The translations under genes were made by a program, and so were the position numbers. From a bacterium (GTDB taxonomy: Bacteria; CAIWAD01), in NCBI GenBank assembly GCA_030429345.1, contig JAUIFJ010000012.1:68512-132511 (forward strand): a DNA stretch of 64,000 nt. Direction: 5' to 3'. The notes below the pieces were generated by a model. It made no database searches. It was not told the DNA's origin and was given only the letters and a program-made list of their open reading frames with translations. Of this stretch, positions 13,659 to 64,000 are shown piece after piece (position 1 is the first letter of the stretch; every line of letters begins with the position of its first letter).

Positions 13659-15083
13659 ATGTCCGAAACCCGCAAACAATTGTTGCTCCTGGGGGCTCGA
13701 CCACTGCAGGAGCGCCTCGAATCCTGGGGCTATTCGACCCTGCACTATGCCGGCACGAAAGAGCTGCTGGCCGAAGCGCCCGAGGTCGGCGCCCGCGCCT
13801 GCATCGCTTCGCTGGAGCTGGTACCGGCAGAGGAACTGCCGCAGTTCATCCGCCGACTGCGCTCCGTGATTCCCTTCATGGACGTGGTCGGCTGGGCGCC
13901 CGGGGCGACACCGGAAAAGGTCCGCAGCGCCTTGCAGGCGGGCTTGAAGGACATTGTGCTACACGTGGATTCGCAGGATCTGCGCGAGCGGCTGCAGCGC
14001 GTGATCGCCCGGCAGCAGTTCCTGCCCCGCCTGCTGGAGCACCGCGGCCGCGCGGAAACCTGGCGCTTCGAGGGACTGCTCAGCCGGGACAGCGCCATGC
14101 ACAGCATCTTCGATACAGTCGTGCGCACGGCTCCCACGGACGCCACGGTGCTCGTGATGGGCGAGACGGGAACGGGCAAGGAGCTCCTGGCGCGCGCGTT
14201 TCACAATCGTTCGGAAAGGGAGGGGCCGATGGTGGCGCTCAACTGCGCCGCCGTGCCGGAGAACCTGATCGATTCGGAACTCTTCGGCAACGAGAAGGGT
14301 GCCTTCACCGGCGCCACCAGTCCGCGGGACGGGCTCTTTCGCCACGCCGAAGGCGGCACGCTGCTGCTGGATGAGATCGGCAGCATTCCCGAACCTGTGC
14401 AGAACCGCCTGCTCCGCGTGCTGCAGGAGGGCGCGGTGCGTCCGGTAGGCGGACAACGGGAGGTGCCGGTGGATGTGCGCATCATTGCCGCCACCAGCCA
14501 GCACCTGGACACCCTCGTCGGCGAAGGCCGCTTCCGCGAGGACCTGCTCTACCGGCTGGATGTGATACGCATCCAGATTCCGCCATTGCGCGAACGGCCC
14601 ATGGACGTGATCTACCTTTTCAGCGTCTTCATGAGCAACCTCTCGTCGAGCTACAAGCTGCAGAGGCACGAGGTCTCCGACAGCTTTCTCGACGCCCTGC
14701 AGACCTACGACTGGCCGGGAAACGTGCGCCAGCTGGAGAACTTCGCCGAGCGCGTGCTGTTGACCGTGCCCTCCTCCGAGCGCCTGAAGGCCGAGCACTT
14801 CCGCAAATACGTCATGCCGATGAGCGAACACGAAAACGCGACGGATTCCGCGCCGCGCACTCCCGCCAGCAATTTCCCGCAGCCGGATCCGAAGCTTCCG
14901 CTTCCCCGGGCCCTGCAGATGGCCCAGGCGTCGCTGGAGAAGTCCTTTCTGCACCAGGCGCTCAAGGCCAACCGCGGCGCTATCGGCGAAAGCGCGCTCC
15001 AGCTCGGCATCAGCCGTCGCACGCTGCAACGCAAGATGCAGCGCTACGGCCTGCAGCGGCAGGCCTATCGCCCGGACCGTTGA
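13659..15083 (+). CDS. Sigma-54-dependent transcriptional activator (NtrC type) with degenerate receiver
   Basis: A 474-aa enhancer-binding protein. Residues about 1-125 have the alternating pattern of a receiver domain (ALQAGLKDIVLHVDSQDL resembles its last helix), but the acidic pocket and phospho-acceptor Asp are missing (RACIASLELVP at that strand), so it is not expected to be phosphorylated. The AAA+ domain is complete: Walker A GETGTGKE at 168-175, GAFTGA at 214-219 for sigma-54 contact, LLLDEIGSIP, and an arginine finger region. A Fis-type helix-turn-helix ends the protein (ESALQLGISRRTLQRKMQRYGL). It is divergent from the arg operon and is the obvious activator of it. The ATG at 13659 was preferred to TTG at 13638. 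Confidence 0.9.
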   Translation: MSETRKQLLLLGARPLQERLESWGYSTLHYAGTKELLAEAPEVGARACIASLELVPAEELPQFIRRLRSVIPFMDVVGWAPGATPEKVRSALQAGLKDIVLHVDSQDLRERLQRVIARQQFLPRLLEHRGRAETWRFEGLLSRDSAMHSIFDTVVRTAPTDATVLVMGETGTGKELLARAFHNRSEREGPMVALNCAAVPENLIDSELFGNEKGAFTGATSPRDGLFRHAEGGTLLLDEIGSIPEPVQNRLLRVLQEGAVRPVGGQREVPVDVRIIAATSQHLDTLVGEGRFREDLLYRLDVIRIQIPPLRERPMDVIYLFSVFMSNLSSSYKLQRHEVSDSFLDALQTYDWPGNVRQLENFAERVLLTVPSSERLKAEHFRKYVMPMSEHENATDSAPRTPASNFPQPDPKLPLPRALQMAQASLEKSFLHQALKANRGAIGESALQLGISRRTLQRKMQRYGLQRQAYRPDR

Positions 15084-56857: not shown

Positions 56858-56861
56858 CCAG

Positions 56862-56935
56862 TGGGCGATACGGGACTCGAACCTGTGACCTCTGGTATGT
56901 GAGACCAGCGCTCTAACCAGCTGAGCTAATCGCCC
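56862..56935 (-). tRNA. tRNA-Val (anticodon CAC)
   Basis: Minus strand, 74 nt with an A discriminator. Acceptor arms GGGCGAT and ATCGCCC pair fully, D arm TAGCTCAGCTGGTTAGAGC, anticodon stem-loop CTGGT-CTCACATA-CCAG with CAC, T arm ACAGGTTCGAGTCCCGT. CCA is not encoded. Confidence 0.96.
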
Positions 56936-57246: not shown

Positions 57247-58056
57247 ATGGCTGAAGACAAACATCTTCCCCAGCAGATCGGCAAGCGATACGCCCACGTC
57301 AAGTGGATCGCCAACCTGGTCCTCTCCCTGATCCTGGTACAGGTGGCCGCCTATGACGCGAGCCGTGTCCCATGGTTCCTGTATCACTGGCTCACCATGC
57401 TGGTCGGCGTGTTCGTGCGCATGCCCGCGAATGACCGCTTCAACCTGTGGCTGTGCTACAGGATCCTGCCGGAATCGCTCCTCCCCGAGCGCCTGCGCTA
57501 CTGGAGAGGCATGCTCTATGTCCTGCTGGACTGCCTGCAGTACGGCGTATACTATTGCTGGCCCTTCTTCCTCGTCCTGCCCGTATCACAGGCCCTTTCG
57601 CTGTCCGTCCTGGTCGCGCTGAGCTTTTTCGTGCCGATCCTGCTCAACCGGGAGGCCTTCCGGATCACGCCGGACGGGGGCTGCCGCTTCCGGTGGCTGC
57701 CCGCGCTGCAGACGAAATGGATCGGGGGCCTGCACACCCTGGGATGGCTGGTCCTGGCCTATGTGCAGCTGGACCATCCCCCGGCCCTTGCGATCTGGAT
57801 CACGGCGAGGGCGATTCCCCTGGTCGGCTCACGGCTGCTGCTGAACCAGACGGGCAGCCAGATCCTCTACATGCTGCTCTTCAGCTACGGCATCTTCGTG
57901 CTTGATTACGGGAGCACCTTCCAGAGCAACCTGGTCTTCGCCGGCGTATTCGCCGCGGCCTTCCTGGTTCTGCTTCCACACATGGTCGAGAACCTTCACT
58001 CCATGCGGCAGTACCGCCAGGCAAGACGCATCAATCTGGGCGCAGATCCGAATTGA
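57247..58056 (+). CDS. Multi-pass membrane protein, member 1 of a four-paralogue family (GC-rich member)
   Basis: A 269-aa protein with about seven hydrophobic segments and a basic cytoplasmic end (ENLHSMRQYRQARR). I do not recognise a named family. It aligns along its whole length with the three AT-richer proteins at 60411, 61427 and 62440: an N-terminal helix pair, a middle helix with LLDCLQYGVYYCWPFFLVLP (compare VFFDQTQKSFEYLLPFYLVAP), a region of the ITARAIPLVGSRLLL type (compare NALVIGRGPMIPIMIML), and the basic C-terminus. Its base composition is that of the surrounding chromosome, so it may be the resident member. It has no adjacent small gene of the type seen with the others. The role is unknown. 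Confidence 0.7.
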   Translation: MAEDKHLPQQIGKRYAHVKWIANLVLSLILVQVAAYDASRVPWFLYHWLTMLVGVFVRMPANDRFNLWLCYRILPESLLPERLRYWRGMLYVLLDCLQYGVYYCWPFFLVLPVSQALSLSVLVALSFFVPILLNREAFRITPDGGCRFRWLPALQTKWIGGLHTLGWLVLAYVQLDHPPALAIWITARAIPLVGSRLLLNQTGSQILYMLLFSYGIFVLDYGSTFQSNLVFAGVFAAAFLVLLPHMVENLHSMRQYRQARRINLGADPN

Positions 58057-58150
58057 TCCCATGGTTCACGATCCGACCTCGTAGAAAGAGGAAGGCCTCC
58101 CCTGCAACTCCTGCGGTTCCATGGGGCGCCACGGCGGGCTCCGTGCTGCA

Positions 58151-58487
58151 CCGCTGCGGGCTGTCGGCCGCAGCTACCATTTAGTCACCGCTTCGCGGTT
58201 GGCACTGTGCGTGATTGGAACTGTTCGCGGGGTGGCCTGCTCGGACCATGAAATGTGAACCAGTCCGTTGTGATACGGATCAACGGTTCCTCGATTCTGG
58301 TACAATCCGAAGGACGTGATATCCAGGCCGCATTCTGGTCCTGCAGGGTGATTGAATGCAGTACGCTTCTTCGACCCCTGTCCTGGTATCGGAAACTCAT
58401 CGATTGATCTTTCCTCTATCCATCGCCAGCACCAGCAATCCGCGAAGCGGAGGCTTAGCGGTAGCTGCGGCCGACAGCCCGCAGCGG
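58151..58487. repeat. Palindrome-ended element E0 next to the transposase gene
   Basis: 337 bp bounded by perfect 28-bp inverted repeats (58151-58178 and 58460-58487, starting CCGCTGCGGGCTGTCGGCCG), with a second inverted pair just inside (CACCGCTTCGCGG and CCGCGAAGCGG). The interior differs from elements E1-E3. It ends 11 bp from the stop codon of the transposase. No gene is seen inside. Confidence 0.85.
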
Positions 58488-58498
58488 GCACCAGTGTT

Positions 58499-58954
58499 TC
58501 ATTCCCCTTCGAACAGGTGTTCATCGCTGAAATCGATCCCGTGTGATCGAAGCAGAAATCTGTATTCGTCTTCGAAGCTCATGCTCGAATGATGCAGTTC
58601 CTGATTCTGGATGTACTGCCGTACAGTGGGAACCTTGGATACACTTACTGCGAATGCGCCATATCCCTTCTGCCATCGGAATTCACCGGCATACCCCTGC
58701 TCCCAGTTGAGCCACCGGGATGAATGAGCCTTTACATGGCGCAATACCGATGCGACCGATTGCGTCAGCGGCATTCCTGCAAGAATATGTACATGATCCG
58801 GCATGCCCCCGATTTCGATCACATGCGCCTTCCGGGACTCGAAGAGGCTCGCCAGATAGGGGTACAGCGAAGAGCAGAAGGGCGGGACAAGGTCAGGCCG
58901 TCGACGGCGTGTACTAAAGACAAGGTGTACATGGAGTCTCGAATAGCTTCCCAT
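58499..58954 (-). CDS. IS200/IS605-type HUH tyrosine transposase
   Basis: A 151-aa Y1 transposase of the TnpA_IS200 / REP-associated family. It has LHVHLVFSTRRRRPDL at the start, the HUH metal motif in GGMPDHVHILAGM, FRWQKGYGAFAVSVSK, and the nucleophile tyrosine in VRQYIQNQELHH. Length fits single-domain enzymes of this type, and no residue essential to the family appears lost. These enzymes cut and join single-stranded DNA at hairpins; the palindrome-ended elements on both sides are the likely substrates. The start at MGSYSRLH was chosen by homology; the upstream extension is not family-like. Confidence 0.9.
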   Translation of the reverse strand: MGSYSRLHVHLVFSTRRRRPDLVPPFCSSLYPYLASLFESRKAHVIEIGGMPDHVHILAGMPLTQSVASVLRHVKAHSSRWLNWEQGYAGEFRWQKGYGAFAVSVSKVPTVRQYIQNQELHHSSMSFEDEYRFLLRSHGIDFSDEHLFEGE

Positions 58955-59226
58955 TGCATGATTCCTGATTGCTGTTTCGGCACCACTACTGCGGGCCTCA
59001 GTATCAACAGAATTGGTTTGTAGTGCAATGCCGCACTGCTGAATGACCGGGAGATCACAGCGTATCGTCCACACCGTATGACACATTAATGGAAATCCCA
59101 ATATGTCAGCTGGGCAGGACGCCTGAGGCCCTCCCTGTGGAGATTTCCGCTTCTGGGCTCTTCCGGTTTGAATCGTGGGATGCCGCTGCGGGTTTCGTGC
59201 TACACCGCTGCGGGTTGCGTGCTACA

Positions 59227-60071
59227 CCGCTGCGGGCTTGCGGCCGCAGCTACCCTGAAACACCGCTTCGCGGAGGGCGATTCTTGTGTAATGGAAGACT
59301 TCCGGTGGGGTGGCTACTTGATACAAAAGATGTGGACCATCGCATTCGTGATAGGGATGGACAGTTCTACGAATGTTGAACCATCCTCTGCCCATCGCCG
59401 GCTCCATAAATCCGCGAAGCGGAGGCTGAAGGTAGCTGCGGCCGCCAGCCCGCAGCGGACTCAAGGATCCCCCCTAAAATCCCTCCAGTTCCCGCGGGTT
59501 TCGTGCTACACCGATGCAGGTTTCGTAATACACCGCTGCGGGCTTGCGGCCGCAGCTACCCTGAAACACCGCTTCGCGGAGGGCGATTCTTGTGTAATCG
59601 AAGACTGCGGGCGGAGTGGATTCTTGATCAGTGAGATGTGGACCATCGCATTTGTTATAGGGATGGACTGTTCTCCGAATGTTGAACCATCCTCTGCCCA
59701 TCGCCGGCACCACAAATCCGCGAAGCGGAGGCTGAAGGTAGCTGCGGCCGTCAGCCCGCAGCGGACTCAAGGATCCCCCCTAAAATCCCTCCAGTTCCCG
59801 CGGGTTTCGTGCTACACCGCTGCGGGTTTCGTAATACACCGCTGCGGGCTTGCGGCCGCAGCTACCCTGAAACACCGCTTCGCGGAGGGCGATTCTTGTG
59901 TAATCGAAGACTGCGGGCGGAGTGGATTCTTGATCAGTGAGATGTGGACCATCGCATTTGTTATAGGGATGGACTGTCCTCCGAATGTTGAACCATCCTC
60001 TGCCCATCGCCGGCACCACAAATCCGCGAAGCGGAGGCTGAAAGGTAGCTGCGGCCGTCAGCCCGTAGCGT
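59227..60071. repeat. Tandem array of palindrome-ended elements E1-E3 (306-bp period)
   Basis: Elements E1 59227-59458, E2 59533-59764 and E3 59839-60071, each 232-233 bp with 28-bp inverted ends (one or a few mismatches) that match E0. They recur with an exact 306-bp period. The 74-bp spacer between elements contains CCCTCCAGTTCCCGCGGG, which on the minus strand encodes PRELEG, the tail of the small gene found at 61210 and 63239. Short GCTACACCGCTGCGGGTT motifs also repeat just before E1. Confidence 0.88.
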
Positions 60072-60239
60072 TCTACAGGATCCCCCATAAAAACCCTCCA
60101 ACTCCCGCGGCTTTCCCGCATCCGCCACGTCCTTGCCGACGACAATGTCCCCGCTGACTTGGCCAATGCAGACCGTCGTGAAGTTCCGTGCCTGGGCCTT
60201 GCTGATGGCGTCCTGGAGCTCGCTGCTCTTTTTAATCAC
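59961..60239 (-). pseudogene. Small-gene copy A, 3' end replaced by element E3
   Basis: A GTG-started reading whose first 50 residues (SELQDAISKAQARNFTTVCI, then GQVSGDIVVGKDVADAGKPR) match the intact small gene at 63239 almost exactly. After PRELEG the normal end (about a dozen residues ending DIELI) is missing and the frame runs on into element E3 for about 40 residues. No good ribosome binding site precedes the GTG. It appears to be a truncated or fused copy. Confidence 0.7.
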
Positions 60240-60410
60240 AGATTGGAATTTTGGGATCCTGGAGCAATATCGACGGGTTCAGGTCGTGCTACACCCCTGC
60301 GAGCCTGCAGACGCCGTGCAATCAATCGTCACCCTGGGTGTGCATCCTGGAACCGGAATTTGCTACTCTTGTCTGGCGGTGTCGCAAATCTGATCGATCG
60401 TGGGGGACCA

Positions 60411-61205
60411 ATGGACGTGCGGATGCGTCGACATAACAACCGCATACTCGTACAGTACCTGGAACACATCGTTTTTTGTTTTAAGACTCTGTTGCTGGTA
60501 CAGATTGCTTTCGTACAGCCTTTGCTGGCACTACTATGGATTCCGCACTACTTCATTTCCCCAGCCGGAATACTTTTCTGGAAGAAAGACATTTGGACCT
60601 ATATCCCAATTCAAATAACATGGGTGGTCAGTGTGCTCTTGCCTTTCCCCAGGGAAAAGACACTGACACTAAGAATGACTATTCTAGTCTTCTTCGACCA
60701 AACCCAGAAGTCCTTTCAATGCTTCATACCATTCTACCTGGTAGCTCCATGGTCATGGGTCATATCAGCATGCATCCTGGTTGGAAGCGTTTGCACTTGG
60801 TTGTCTTTCCGAGATAGAACCTACATTCTCAGACTCCCAAATGGTGCGTTGAGATACACAAATGAGAAAGCAGGTTCCTGGTTCAGGGCCATCACCCTGC
60901 TTGCAGTATTGACTCTATTCAGGGACCAACTCCTACATCATCCTGAACTTCTTATTCCTGCTCCCATGCTATTGTTGTATGTGGCGAATGCCCTCTGGAT
61001 AGGTCTGGCACCCATTATTCCAATTATGCTACTGCTGCAGAACGCGCTCTATCGATACATCTTATGGAACTCACATGCCGTAGGTCTGATTCTAATCCTG
61101 CTATTTCTAGTACTCATCATTTACTTATGGAAGCCATTGAAAGAAGAGTTTCGAATCAGCCGCCAGAAACGCCTGATTCGAAAACTCAAATCACCTACAA
61201 ATTGA
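60411..61205 (+). CDS. Multi-pass membrane protein, paralogue 2
   Basis: A 264-aa protein with about seven hydrophobic helices. ATG has TGGGGGA upstream. Shared landmarks with paralogues 3 and 4 are FWKKDIWTYIPIQITWVV, MTILVFFDQTQKSF, PFYLVAPWSWV, CTWLSFRDRTYILRL, LLQNALYR and the basic end PLKEEFRISRQKR. It is clearly AT-richer than the rest of the window and uses codons rare elsewhere here, suggesting transfer. A convergent copy of the small gene starts its stop codon 5 bp downstream. No function is known. Confidence 0.8.
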   Translation: MDVRMRRHNNRILVQYLEHIVFCFKTLLLVQIAFVQPLLALLWIPHYFISPAGILFWKKDIWTYIPIQITWVVSVLLPFPREKTLTLRMTILVFFDQTQKSFQCFIPFYLVAPWSWVISACILVGSVCTWLSFRDRTYILRLPNGALRYTNEKAGSWFRAITLLAVLTLFRDQLLHHPELLIPAPMLLLYVANALWIGLAPIIPIMLLLQNALYRYILWNSHAVGLILILLFLVLIIYLWKPLKEEFRISRQKRLIRKLKSPTN

Positions 61206-61209
61206 ATTC

Positions 61210-61398
61210 CTAGATCAGTTCAATGTCGGTTCCTGCCGCGTTTTCTTCTGTCCCCTCCAACTCCCGCGGCTTTCCCGCATCCGCCACGTCCTTGCTGACG
61301 ACAATGTCCCCGTTGACTTGGCCAATGCAGACCGTCGTGAAGTTTTGGAGTTGGGCTAGACTGTCAGGAAATACTATTCTTTGCAAGCCGTTGTGCAT
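61210..61398 (-). CDS. Small gene copy B (62 aa), convergent with paralogue 2
   Basis: A 62-aa reading, MHNGLQRIVF at the start and the conserved core NFTTVCIGQVNGDIVVSKDV, DAGKPRELEG and the end GTDIELI. The N-terminal 20 residues differ from the intact copy at 63239 and the Shine-Dalgarno sequence is weak, so expression is uncertain. It lies tail to tail with the membrane gene at 60411 (4 bp between stops) and its start region overlaps the upstream sequence of paralogue 3. Confidence 0.55.
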   Translation of the reverse strand: MHNGLQRIVFPDSLAQLQNFTTVCIGQVNGDIVVSKDVADAGKPRELEGTEENAAGTDIELI

Positions 61399-61426
61399 GC
61401 TCTAAAATGAAAGTGGCGAAGCCAGG

Positions 61427-62206
61427 ATGGAAGTACGGTTTTATCCACATAACAAGCGTAAAGTCATCGAGTATCTGCCTACTGTTGCTTTTGCATTAAG
61501 GTTTCTGATTGTAGCACAGCTTGCGTTCGAATTGCCTCTCCTGGCGTTGCTTCTTCTCCCCCACTATGTCCTTTCGCCGTTTGTGGAGATGATCTGGAAG
61601 AAAGACCTCTGGAACTACAGCGCCGTCCAACTGGTCTGGCTGATTCGATTCCTGCTGCCCTTGCCTGACGAGAAAACGAGAACCTTCCGAATGACTGTTC
61701 TTGTATTCTTCGATCAAACCCAGAAATCCTTCGAGTACCTGCTTCCATTCTACCTGGTCGCTCCGTGGTCCTGGGTTTTCATTGCTTGCTTCGTGCATGG
61801 GGGAGTTTGCACCTGGATCACATTCAGAAACAAGACCTATCTTCTGCGACTCTCCTCAGGAGCATTGAAGTATATTAGCGACACGGCCGGTTCTGGATTC
61901 AGATTTGTCGCATTACTATTGCTTCTCGTGTTGACATGGGAACAGGTATCCCTGCACCCGGAAGTCCTGTTGTCCGCACCATATCTTCTGCTGCATTCCT
62001 TCAATGCTCTAGTGATCGGCAGAGGACCAATGATCCCGATCATGATCATGCTGCAGAATTCGCTGTACCGGTCAGCATTGTGGGATTCTTATGTCATAGA
62101 TTTGATTCTCATTCTGCTGAATCTGGTGTTGTTCACTTTTGTTCTGGATCCTCTCAAAGAAGAGATTCGAACCTGGCGACAGCTACGCAAGGTTCGAAAT
62201 CTCTAG
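61427..62206 (+). CDS. Multi-pass membrane protein, paralogue 3
   Basis: A 259-aa protein very similar to paralogue 4 (62440) and less so to paralogue 2. Motifs are MEVRFYPHNKRK at the N-terminus, MIWKKDLWNYSAVQLVWLI, MTVLVFFDQTQKSFEYLLPF, APWSWVFIACFVH, CTWITFRNKTYLLRLSSGAL and the basic PLKEEIRTWRQLRKVR end. About seven membrane helices. The upstream sequence (GGGCTAGACTGTCAGGAAATACTATT) is conserved before paralogue 4, so a promoter was probably copied with it. Function unknown. Confidence 0.82.
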   Translation: MEVRFYPHNKRKVIEYLPTVAFALRFLIVAQLAFELPLLALLLLPHYVLSPFVEMIWKKDLWNYSAVQLVWLIRFLLPLPDEKTRTFRMTVLVFFDQTQKSFEYLLPFYLVAPWSWVFIACFVHGGVCTWITFRNKTYLLRLSSGALKYISDTAGSGFRFVALLLLLVLTWEQVSLHPEVLLSAPYLLLHSFNALVIGRGPMIPIMIMLQNSLYRSALWDSYVIDLILILLNLVLFTFVLDPLKEEIRTWRQLRKVRNL

Positions 62207-62222
62207 CCTGGATCTTGCGGAA

Positions 62223-62411
62223 TCAAGGCAGTTCGATGTCCGCTCCACTCTGAGTCACCGCAGTCCCCCTCCAACTCCCGCGGCTTGCCCGCATCCGCCA
62301 CGTCCTTGCCGACGACAATGTCCCCTTTATCCTCCCCGATGCAGACGGTGGAGAAGTTATTTGCTGGGCTAGGCTGCCTGGAATTACTATTTTTTGCATG
62401 CCGTAGTACAT
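62223..62411 (-). pseudogene. Small gene copy C, broken by two frameshifts
   Basis: The start (MYYGMQKIVIPGSLAQQ) and the end (SGADIELP) are in one frame, while the conserved core (NNFSTVCIGEDKGDIVVGKD, then VADAGKPRELEG) is in another. Two opposite indels, near 62360 and near 62270, would be needed to restore one protein. It occupies the same tail-to-tail position after paralogue 3 as copies B and D do after theirs. Confidence 0.7.
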
Positions 62412-62439
62412 GCAACAGAAGAGAAAGTGGCGAAGCCTG

Positions 62440-63231
62440 ATGGAAGTTCGGTTTTATCCACACGACAAGCGTTCACTCGTCGAGTATCTGACAATTGTGA
62501 TCGTCTTATTCAGGTTGCTGATTGTAGCACAGCTTTCGCTCGAGGCGCCCCTCCTGGCGTTGCTTTTGCTCCCTCACAATGTCCTTGCACCGTTTGTGAG
62601 AATGATCTGGAAGAAAGACCTGTGGAACTACACCGCCGTCCAACTGGTCTGGCTGGTTCGATTCCTGCTGCCTTCGCCTGACGAGAAAACGAGAACGTTC
62701 CGAATGACTGTTCTGGTATTCTTCGATCAAACCCAGAAATCTTTCGAGTACCTTCTTCCATACTACCTGATCGCCCCGTGGTCCTGGGTTTTCATCGCTT
62801 GCTTCGTGCATGCGGGAGTTTGCACCTGGATCACATTCAAAAGCAAGACCTATCTTCTGCGACTCTCCTCGGGAGCCTTGAAGTATATCAACGACACGGC
62901 CGGTTCGGGATTCAGATTTGCCGCATTGCTCTTGCTTGTCGTCTTGACCTGGGAAGATGTTTCCGTACACCCGGAAATCCTTTTGCCCGCTACATTTCTT
63001 CTGCTGCATGCCTTCAATGCGCTTCGGATCGGCAGAGCACCAATTCTCCCGATTCTCTTCTTGCTGCAGAATTCGCTGTATAGGTCAGCGTTGTGGGATT
63101 CTCACGTTATTGATCTGATATTCATTCTACTGAATCTGGTGTTGTTCATTTTTCTTCTGGATCCCCTCAAGAAAGAGATTCGAACCTGGCGACAAGTTCG
63201 CAAGGTTCGAAATCTCTCGTCAGAATCGTAA
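62440..63231 (+). CDS. Multi-pass membrane protein, paralogue 4
   Basis: A 263-aa close relative of paralogue 3; most differences are conservative. MEVRFYPHDKRS at the start (the ATG was set at 62440 to match paralogue 3; an in-frame ATG at 62410 exists), MIWKKDLWNYTAVQLVWLV, MTVLVFFDQTQKSFEYLLPY, APWSWVFIACFVH, LLQNSLYRSALWDSHVIDL, and PLKKEIRTWRQVRKVRN. About seven helices with a basic cytoplasmic tail. It is followed after 7 bp by the intact small gene in the opposite direction. Confidence 0.82.
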   Translation: MEVRFYPHDKRSLVEYLTIVIVLFRLLIVAQLSLEAPLLALLLLPHNVLAPFVRMIWKKDLWNYTAVQLVWLVRFLLPSPDEKTRTFRMTVLVFFDQTQKSFEYLLPYYLIAPWSWVFIACFVHAGVCTWITFKSKTYLLRLSSGALKYINDTAGSGFRFAALLLLVVLTWEDVSVHPEILLPATFLLLHAFNALRIGRAPILPILFLLQNSLYRSALWDSHVIDLIFILLNLVLFIFLLDPLKKEIRTWRQVRKVRNLSSES

Positions 63232-63238
63232 ACAGGGA

Positions 63239-63445
63239 TTAAATCAACTCAATGTCCGTACCGTTATCTGTAGCTGCCTCACCTTCCAACTCCCGCGGCT
63301 TGCCCGCATCCGCCACGTCCTTGCCTACGACAATGTCCCCGTTCACCTCGCCAATGCAGACCGTGGTGAAGTTCCGTGCCTGGGCCTTGCTGATGGCGTC
63401 CTGGAGCTCGCTGATGTCGATTTTCCTGCTGGGTACGGTAGCCAT
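63239..63445 (-). CDS. Small gene copy D (68 aa), intact member
   Basis: A 68-aa protein starting MATVPSRKIDISELQDAISK and ending TDIELI, with the core ARNFTTVCIGEVNGDIVVGK and DVADAGKPRELEG and a single cysteine. An excellent AAGGAG lies 7 bp before the ATG, so this copy is probably expressed. No signal peptide or membrane segment. The predicted shape is one helix followed by a beta hairpin (inference). I do not recognise the family. It is the only copy with a complete N-terminus and is convergent with membrane paralogue 4. Confidence 0.75.
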   Translation of the reverse strand: MATVPSRKIDISELQDAISKAQARNFTTVCIGEVNGDIVVGKDVADAGKPRELEGEAATDNGTDIELI

Positions 63446-63880: not shown

Positions 63881-63990
63881 CAGGCTCCGGTTGAGTCCGT
63901 AGATTTGTGCAAAAGCAGCTAAGCCCTTGAAAAAGGAAGGGCCATGGCCTTCTTTAGTGGTGCATAACCAAATCACTAAGGAGGAAAACC

Positions 63991-64000
63991 ATGGCCCAGC
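63991..64000 (+). CDS. Start of a gene that runs off the window
   Basis: ATGGCCCAGC (Met-Ala-Gln) preceded by AAGGAGG at the ideal distance. An imperfect palindrome AAGGAAGGGCCATGGCCTTCTTT lies 40-55 bp upstream (about 63934-63956). Nothing can be said of the product. Confidence 0.6.

Follow-up and report, generated by a model that had tools for sequence, protein, structure and literature searches.

A lineage-restricted locus in which an orphan membrane-protein gene was probably amplified in tandem with part of a convergent small gene

Two protein families without detectable relatives lie side by side in the window (the whole 64,000-nucleotide stretch of DNA analyzed here): a polytopic membrane protein, M, and a small protein, S, encoded on the opposite strand and facing M. 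Both are real, selected genes, and one of them has been amplified in a thinly sampled lineage. The locus is best read as a gene family specific to this lineage and not as an established two-gene system for attack or defence. We consider it probable that this is a lineage-restricted orphan locus in which M was amplified in tandem, the 3' part of S was carried along as a passenger, and S may act in trans.

The membrane family comprises three intact ORFs arranged head to tail on the plus strand, each encoding an orphan membrane protein: genes B (60411-61205, 264 aa), C (61427-62206, 259 aa), and D (62440-63231, with an alternative upstream ATG at 62410). Each converges on a minus-strand copy of the small gene, namely S2 (61210-61398), S3 (62203-62463/62223-62411), and S4 (63239-63445), respectively. 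The stop codons are separated by 4 bp in B/S2 and by 7 bp in D/S4, and S3 overlaps the stop codon of C. An earlier, sequence-only reading had described three units of about 1 kb, each a plus-strand membrane gene facing a minus-strand small gene with stops 4-7 bp apart or overlapping, and both its coordinates and its layout were correct. Its list of small genes (S2, S3, and S4) was accurate as far as it went and missed a fourth copy, S1 (60093-60225, minus strand). The repeat period is 1,016 and 1,013 bp over the three copies, with the S fragments in register. The proposed joint duplication, in tandem, of the membrane gene and its facing small gene is borne out by these matched M and S parts: the units are head-to-tail copies of one segment with a regular period.

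Selection has acted on the membrane proteins. C shares 81% identity with D, and B shares 54% with C. Between C and D, 105 substitutions in 777 nucleotides change 48 residues; when the same changes were placed neutrally, 69.8 residue changes were expected, with a minimum of 54 in 3,000 simulations. The dN/dS ratio was 0.33-0.50 for C-D and lower for B-C, a pair whose synonymous sites are near saturation. Because synonymous change is in excess, we conclude that selection kept these proteins and that the membrane family consists of real, selected coding genes. B, C, and D, with their open frames, are thus still functional gene copies, intact and diverging as the earlier reading held. The predicted structure of M (pLDDT 58.7) was too poor for fold assignment, and Foldseek returned no match at E<0.001. 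M is a polytopic membrane protein; hydropathy and this low-confidence model put its helices at about 7-9 and do not fix the count of seven given earlier. GC3 is 0.51-0.61 in B, C, and D, compared with 0.85-0.90 in gene A, gapA, and pgk.

Gene A (57247-58056, plus strand) encodes a 269-aa polytopic membrane protein with native GC content and had been described as a fourth, GC-rich paralogue. The base composition was as described (GC3 0.85), and paralogy proved weakly supported. Identity between A and B/C/D was 22% in a forced alignment, and hhalign paired 102 residues at corresponding positions (E value 0.0012, 28% identity). The B/C/D profile scored 10.5 bits against A, higher than for any unrelated ORF in the window and for 999 of 1,000 shuffles, although the best shuffle reached 10.7. 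A is therefore, at best, a possible distant paralogue of B/C/D as judged from its sequence. No relatives of A were found in the genomes of the host's family. The AT-richness assigned to the whole region applies to B, C, and D, but not to A, whose GC3 is that of the chromosome.

The four copies of S are in different states. S4 is the sole full-length small gene, encoding 68 aa, and carries a Shine-Dalgarno-like AAGGAG 7 bases before its ATG. S2 is a 62-aa ORF that retains residues 25-68; its original N-terminus is gone, and an unrelated, new 18-residue N-terminus sits in the leader region of gene C. S3 contains two frameshifts, one base having been lost before the core and one gained after it. 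S1, which covers residues 12-55 and is 94% identical to S4, is open within a frame of 92 aa (59961-60239) whose N-terminus differs, and its C-terminal part has been lost and replaced by an adjoining array of REP palindromes. The boundaries of the S copies are sharp, and full length is found solely at the end of the array. The cores of S1, S2, and S4 are 90-97% alike (84-90 of 93 nt), closer than genes B, C, and D are to one another.

The substitutions among these copies follow the S reading frame, falling mainly at its third positions. The six-codon linker aside, 13 codons distinguish S2 from S4, 11 of them by synonymous changes; the two nonsynonymous codons compare with 9.5 expected, and none of 20,000 simulations gave two or fewer (P<5e-5). 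This synonymous excess is confined to the S frame and was seen in no other frame on either strand. All five changes private to S4 are synonymous, and S1, S2, and S3 carry private or copy-specific replacements. From the substitution pattern, the S3 frameshifts, and the AAGGAG of S4, we conclude that S4 is a constrained gene and that S1-S3 diverged as coding sequences before becoming relaxed or broken. Only S4 is clearly still functional as an amplified small gene; S2, with its open 62-aa frame, could be functional. This agrees with the earlier view that only one or two of the small genes look functional; S4 is whole, and S1-S3 are truncated or frameshifted.

Within S, a hexapeptide linker separates an almost invariant core (NFTTVCIG..GDIVV.KDVADAGKPRELEG) from the conserved tail GTDIELI, and this linker is wholly or almost wholly different among the copies: EAATDN in S4, TEENAA in S2, and TAVTQS in S3. 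Across these three copies (61213-61398, 62226-62411, and 63242-63445, minus strand), all six linker codons differ, at 11-13 of 18 nucleotides, which exceeds what the synonymous divergence elsewhere would suggest. With three sequences to compare, the variability looks no different from that of an unconstrained linker. Structure prediction for S reached a pLDDT of 56.7, too poor for fold assignment, and Foldseek found no match at E<0.001; S is presumed to be a small acidic cytosolic protein, modelled with low confidence as a helix, a beta-hairpin, and a flexible tail ending in GTDIELI.

Neither S nor B/C/D matched any family in Pfam, NCBIfam, PHROGs, or PADLOC, and no match to a known defence protein was found in PADLOC-DB 2.0.0 at E<=1. 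No relatives of either were found among PDB sequences, viral contigs, plasmids, and phages, in a pattern search of about 85,000 GTDB species (one genome each), or in a single-sequence search of 98 genomes. A profile search with the membrane family found no relatives in 290 genomes; weak profile matches in 13 other genomes were rejected as noise, being short, mostly crossing stop codons, and, where the frame was open, spanning 33-74 residues. Both families are absent from three genomes of the sister genus. The lineage is thinly sampled: the comparison set includes three other genomes of the family and one more of the class, and the next closest share only the domain. Within their own genome, the four S copies and B/C/D are confined to this locus, so that S as a dispersed mobile repeat was rejected. 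By sequence comparison at this breadth, S and M are new protein families without detectable relatives, and the earlier suggestion that both proteins are undescribed is upheld across Pfam, NCBIfam, PHROGs, PADLOC, PDB, and the GTDB-species set. Two findings that would have spoken against the proposed two-gene system, membrane homologues occurring widely without the small gene and the small gene belonging to a mobile element, were looked for and not found; S occurs only here. Except for tRNA, nothing in Rfam reached the gathering score, and promoter-like sites were no more frequent than expected by chance.

The surroundings of the array differ in nature from the M-S units. Between gene A and S1, at 58142-60075, lies a Y1-transposase gene flanked by genome-dispersed REP palindromes, unrelated to the M-S units. 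The transposase matched Pfam Y1_Tnp with 82 bits and passed the IS200 model (64.2 bits against a cut-off of 55), and it did not reach the NCBIfam equivalog for REP-associated tyrosine transposases (27.7 bits against a cut-off of 80). The REP repeats, arranged as inverted pairs, number 35 copies genome-wide and 0 in a reversed control. The array holds three 306-bp tandem units, each with about 20 nt resembling the 3' end of S1; therefore, the REP array grew over the end of S1. At the other side, 63888-64000 is the first part of an element that recurs across the genome in about 12 near-identical copies, many of them at contig ends. The contig end at 64000 falls inside this multi-copy element, which is probably an insertion sequence breaking the assembly.

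A tRNA-Val(cac) gene (56861-56935) adjoins gapA. The two are also neighbors in the three sister-genus genomes, in the opposite relative orientation; a 125-aa HTH gene lies between them here, and in the relatives the distance from tRNA to gapA is about 145 bp. The three sister-genus genomes carry other genes at the homologous gapA-tRNA-Val site, which is the side of the array that the contig covers, and the M-S array therefore appears specific to the host genus, as far as the compared genomes show. A tRNA-targeted integrative element was considered and rejected: the array is on the 5' side of the tRNA, and the sister-genus tRNA also stands by gapA, inverted. For these reasons, we favor a rearrangement at tRNA-Val/gapA over integration of the classical kind at a tRNA.

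The structure of the array suggests the following history. A single membrane gene M would originally have converged on a single small gene S. A segment of about 1.01 kb, with breakpoints upstream of M and inside S, would then have been duplicated to give M-S'-M-S'-M-S, so that every M bears the 3' part of S and the outermost S alone is whole; this structure is observed, and the order of events is inferred. Simple duplication would have to be supplemented by gene conversion among the S cores, as implied by S1, S2, and S4 being more alike in their cores than B, C, and D. Selection has kept the M copies, which are diverging; S4 has remained under strict conservation, and the truncated S copies show relaxation and breakage. 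M is presumed to be a polytopic protein of the inner membrane, whose extra copies may provide dosage or diversification. With three M genes maintained and a single S clearly so, the likeliest role for S, which remains a guess, would be to assist or regulate one or several M proteins in trans.

The state of the S copies also bears on whether M and S form a functional two-gene system (toxin-immunity, bacteriocin, defence, or export), as the sequence-only reading had proposed. We rate as unlikely a cognate pair of the toxin-immunity, peptide-receptor, or defence-like kind, in which each M recognizes its facing S and the hexapeptide sets specificity. S and M do converge, almost without a gap, in every unit, S was under purifying selection, and its two conserved blocks enclose a six-residue segment that differs completely per copy while M diverges in parallel; a free linker, however, can vary too. 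Moreover, the neighboring M genes are intact despite the frameshifts in S3 and the missing ends of S1 and S2, and this loss of S beside maintained membrane copies disfavors an obligatory one-to-one pairing. Toxin-immunity pairs are normally co-transcribed, and a convergent orientation is unusual for them. Neither protein belongs to a toxin, antitoxin, or immunity family in Pfam, NCBIfam, PHROGs, or PADLOC, and a search for M-S co-occurrence in other genomes yielded zero homologues of either gene to compare. The proposal of a functional system is thus not supported, given the missing family matches and the broken S1-S3 beside constrained M. The bolder version, a new cognate pair with the variable hexapeptide as its specificity determinant, that is, a so far undescribed system of the peptide-receptor or effector-immunity type that diversifies through tandem duplication, is less likely still.

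The same broken copies could be taken as a sign of pure decay, with S and M as remnants of a horizontally acquired AT-rich island, now functionless and heading for loss. The low GC3 of B/C/D, the REP/Y1-transposase array and multi-copy element next door, and the lack of relatives of S or M in the sister genus would all fit this account. However, all three M frames are intact and carry fewer amino-acid replacements than neutrality would give, and S4 is intact, with private changes that are synonymous only and a Shine-Dalgarno-like sequence. We therefore regard decay, too, as improbable.

An integron-like arrangement, with the S cores serving as recombination sites and the membrane genes as cassettes between them, is very improbable and was rejected: conserved blocks of about 92 nt do separate diverging AT-rich genes, the minus strands of S1 and S2 can form a long hairpin bounded by AACT/AGTT, and the genome encodes a bona fide integron integrase on another contig (TIGR02249, 452.5 bits, C58:12288-13223), but S3 and S4 lack such a fold, z-scores are unremarkable, canonical attC ends (RYYYAAC...GTTRRRY) are absent from the S blocks, and the S-block substitutions follow the S reading frame. 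The genome's own attC-like element, on contig C58 (about 14425-14553), looks unlike the S blocks, and blastn revealed no shared site. An integrase is present in the genome, and attC sites between the membrane genes are not. On C58 (12183-14666), the integrase and an AT-rich cassette ORF downstream of it (13837-14430) point the same way, and the attC-like hairpin follows that ORF. This co-directional layout recalls 'inverted' integrons, and the array runs off the contig.

Returning to the lineage-restricted orphan locus, we compared it with known systems. If the M-S pair were functional, it would be an undescribed system. In polymorphic toxin/immunity orphan arrays, fragments of one gene are repeated beside intact copies of a partner gene, and S fragments are similarly repeated beside intact M copies; unlike in those arrays, M and S are convergent rather than co-directional, S has 68 aa, and no toxin or immunity family is matched. 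Integron cassette arrays resemble the locus in their diverging AT-rich genes with similar short blocks between, and here an integrase is encoded elsewhere in the genome; in contrast, the M-S blocks are coding sequence without attC ends, and two of the four copies do not form the hairpin. The adjoining 2 kb, with inverted palindromes in 35 copies and a Y1_Tnp gene, is like REP/BIME elements with their Y1 (REP-associated-like) transposase (PMC2817692), whereas the M-S units are not REP, and the REP array meets them only where S1 is broken. Orphan gene families restricted to particular lineages of uncultivated taxa have been catalogued (PMC10849945). S and M resemble these families in having no homologues outside the lineage and in showing purifying selection at the protein level, and differ in that M-S occurs in a single genome so far, is locally amplified, and has its facing small gene trapped in the repeat. 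As it currently stands, the locus offers a clean example of an orphan-gene family that is growing and has trapped a passenger gene.
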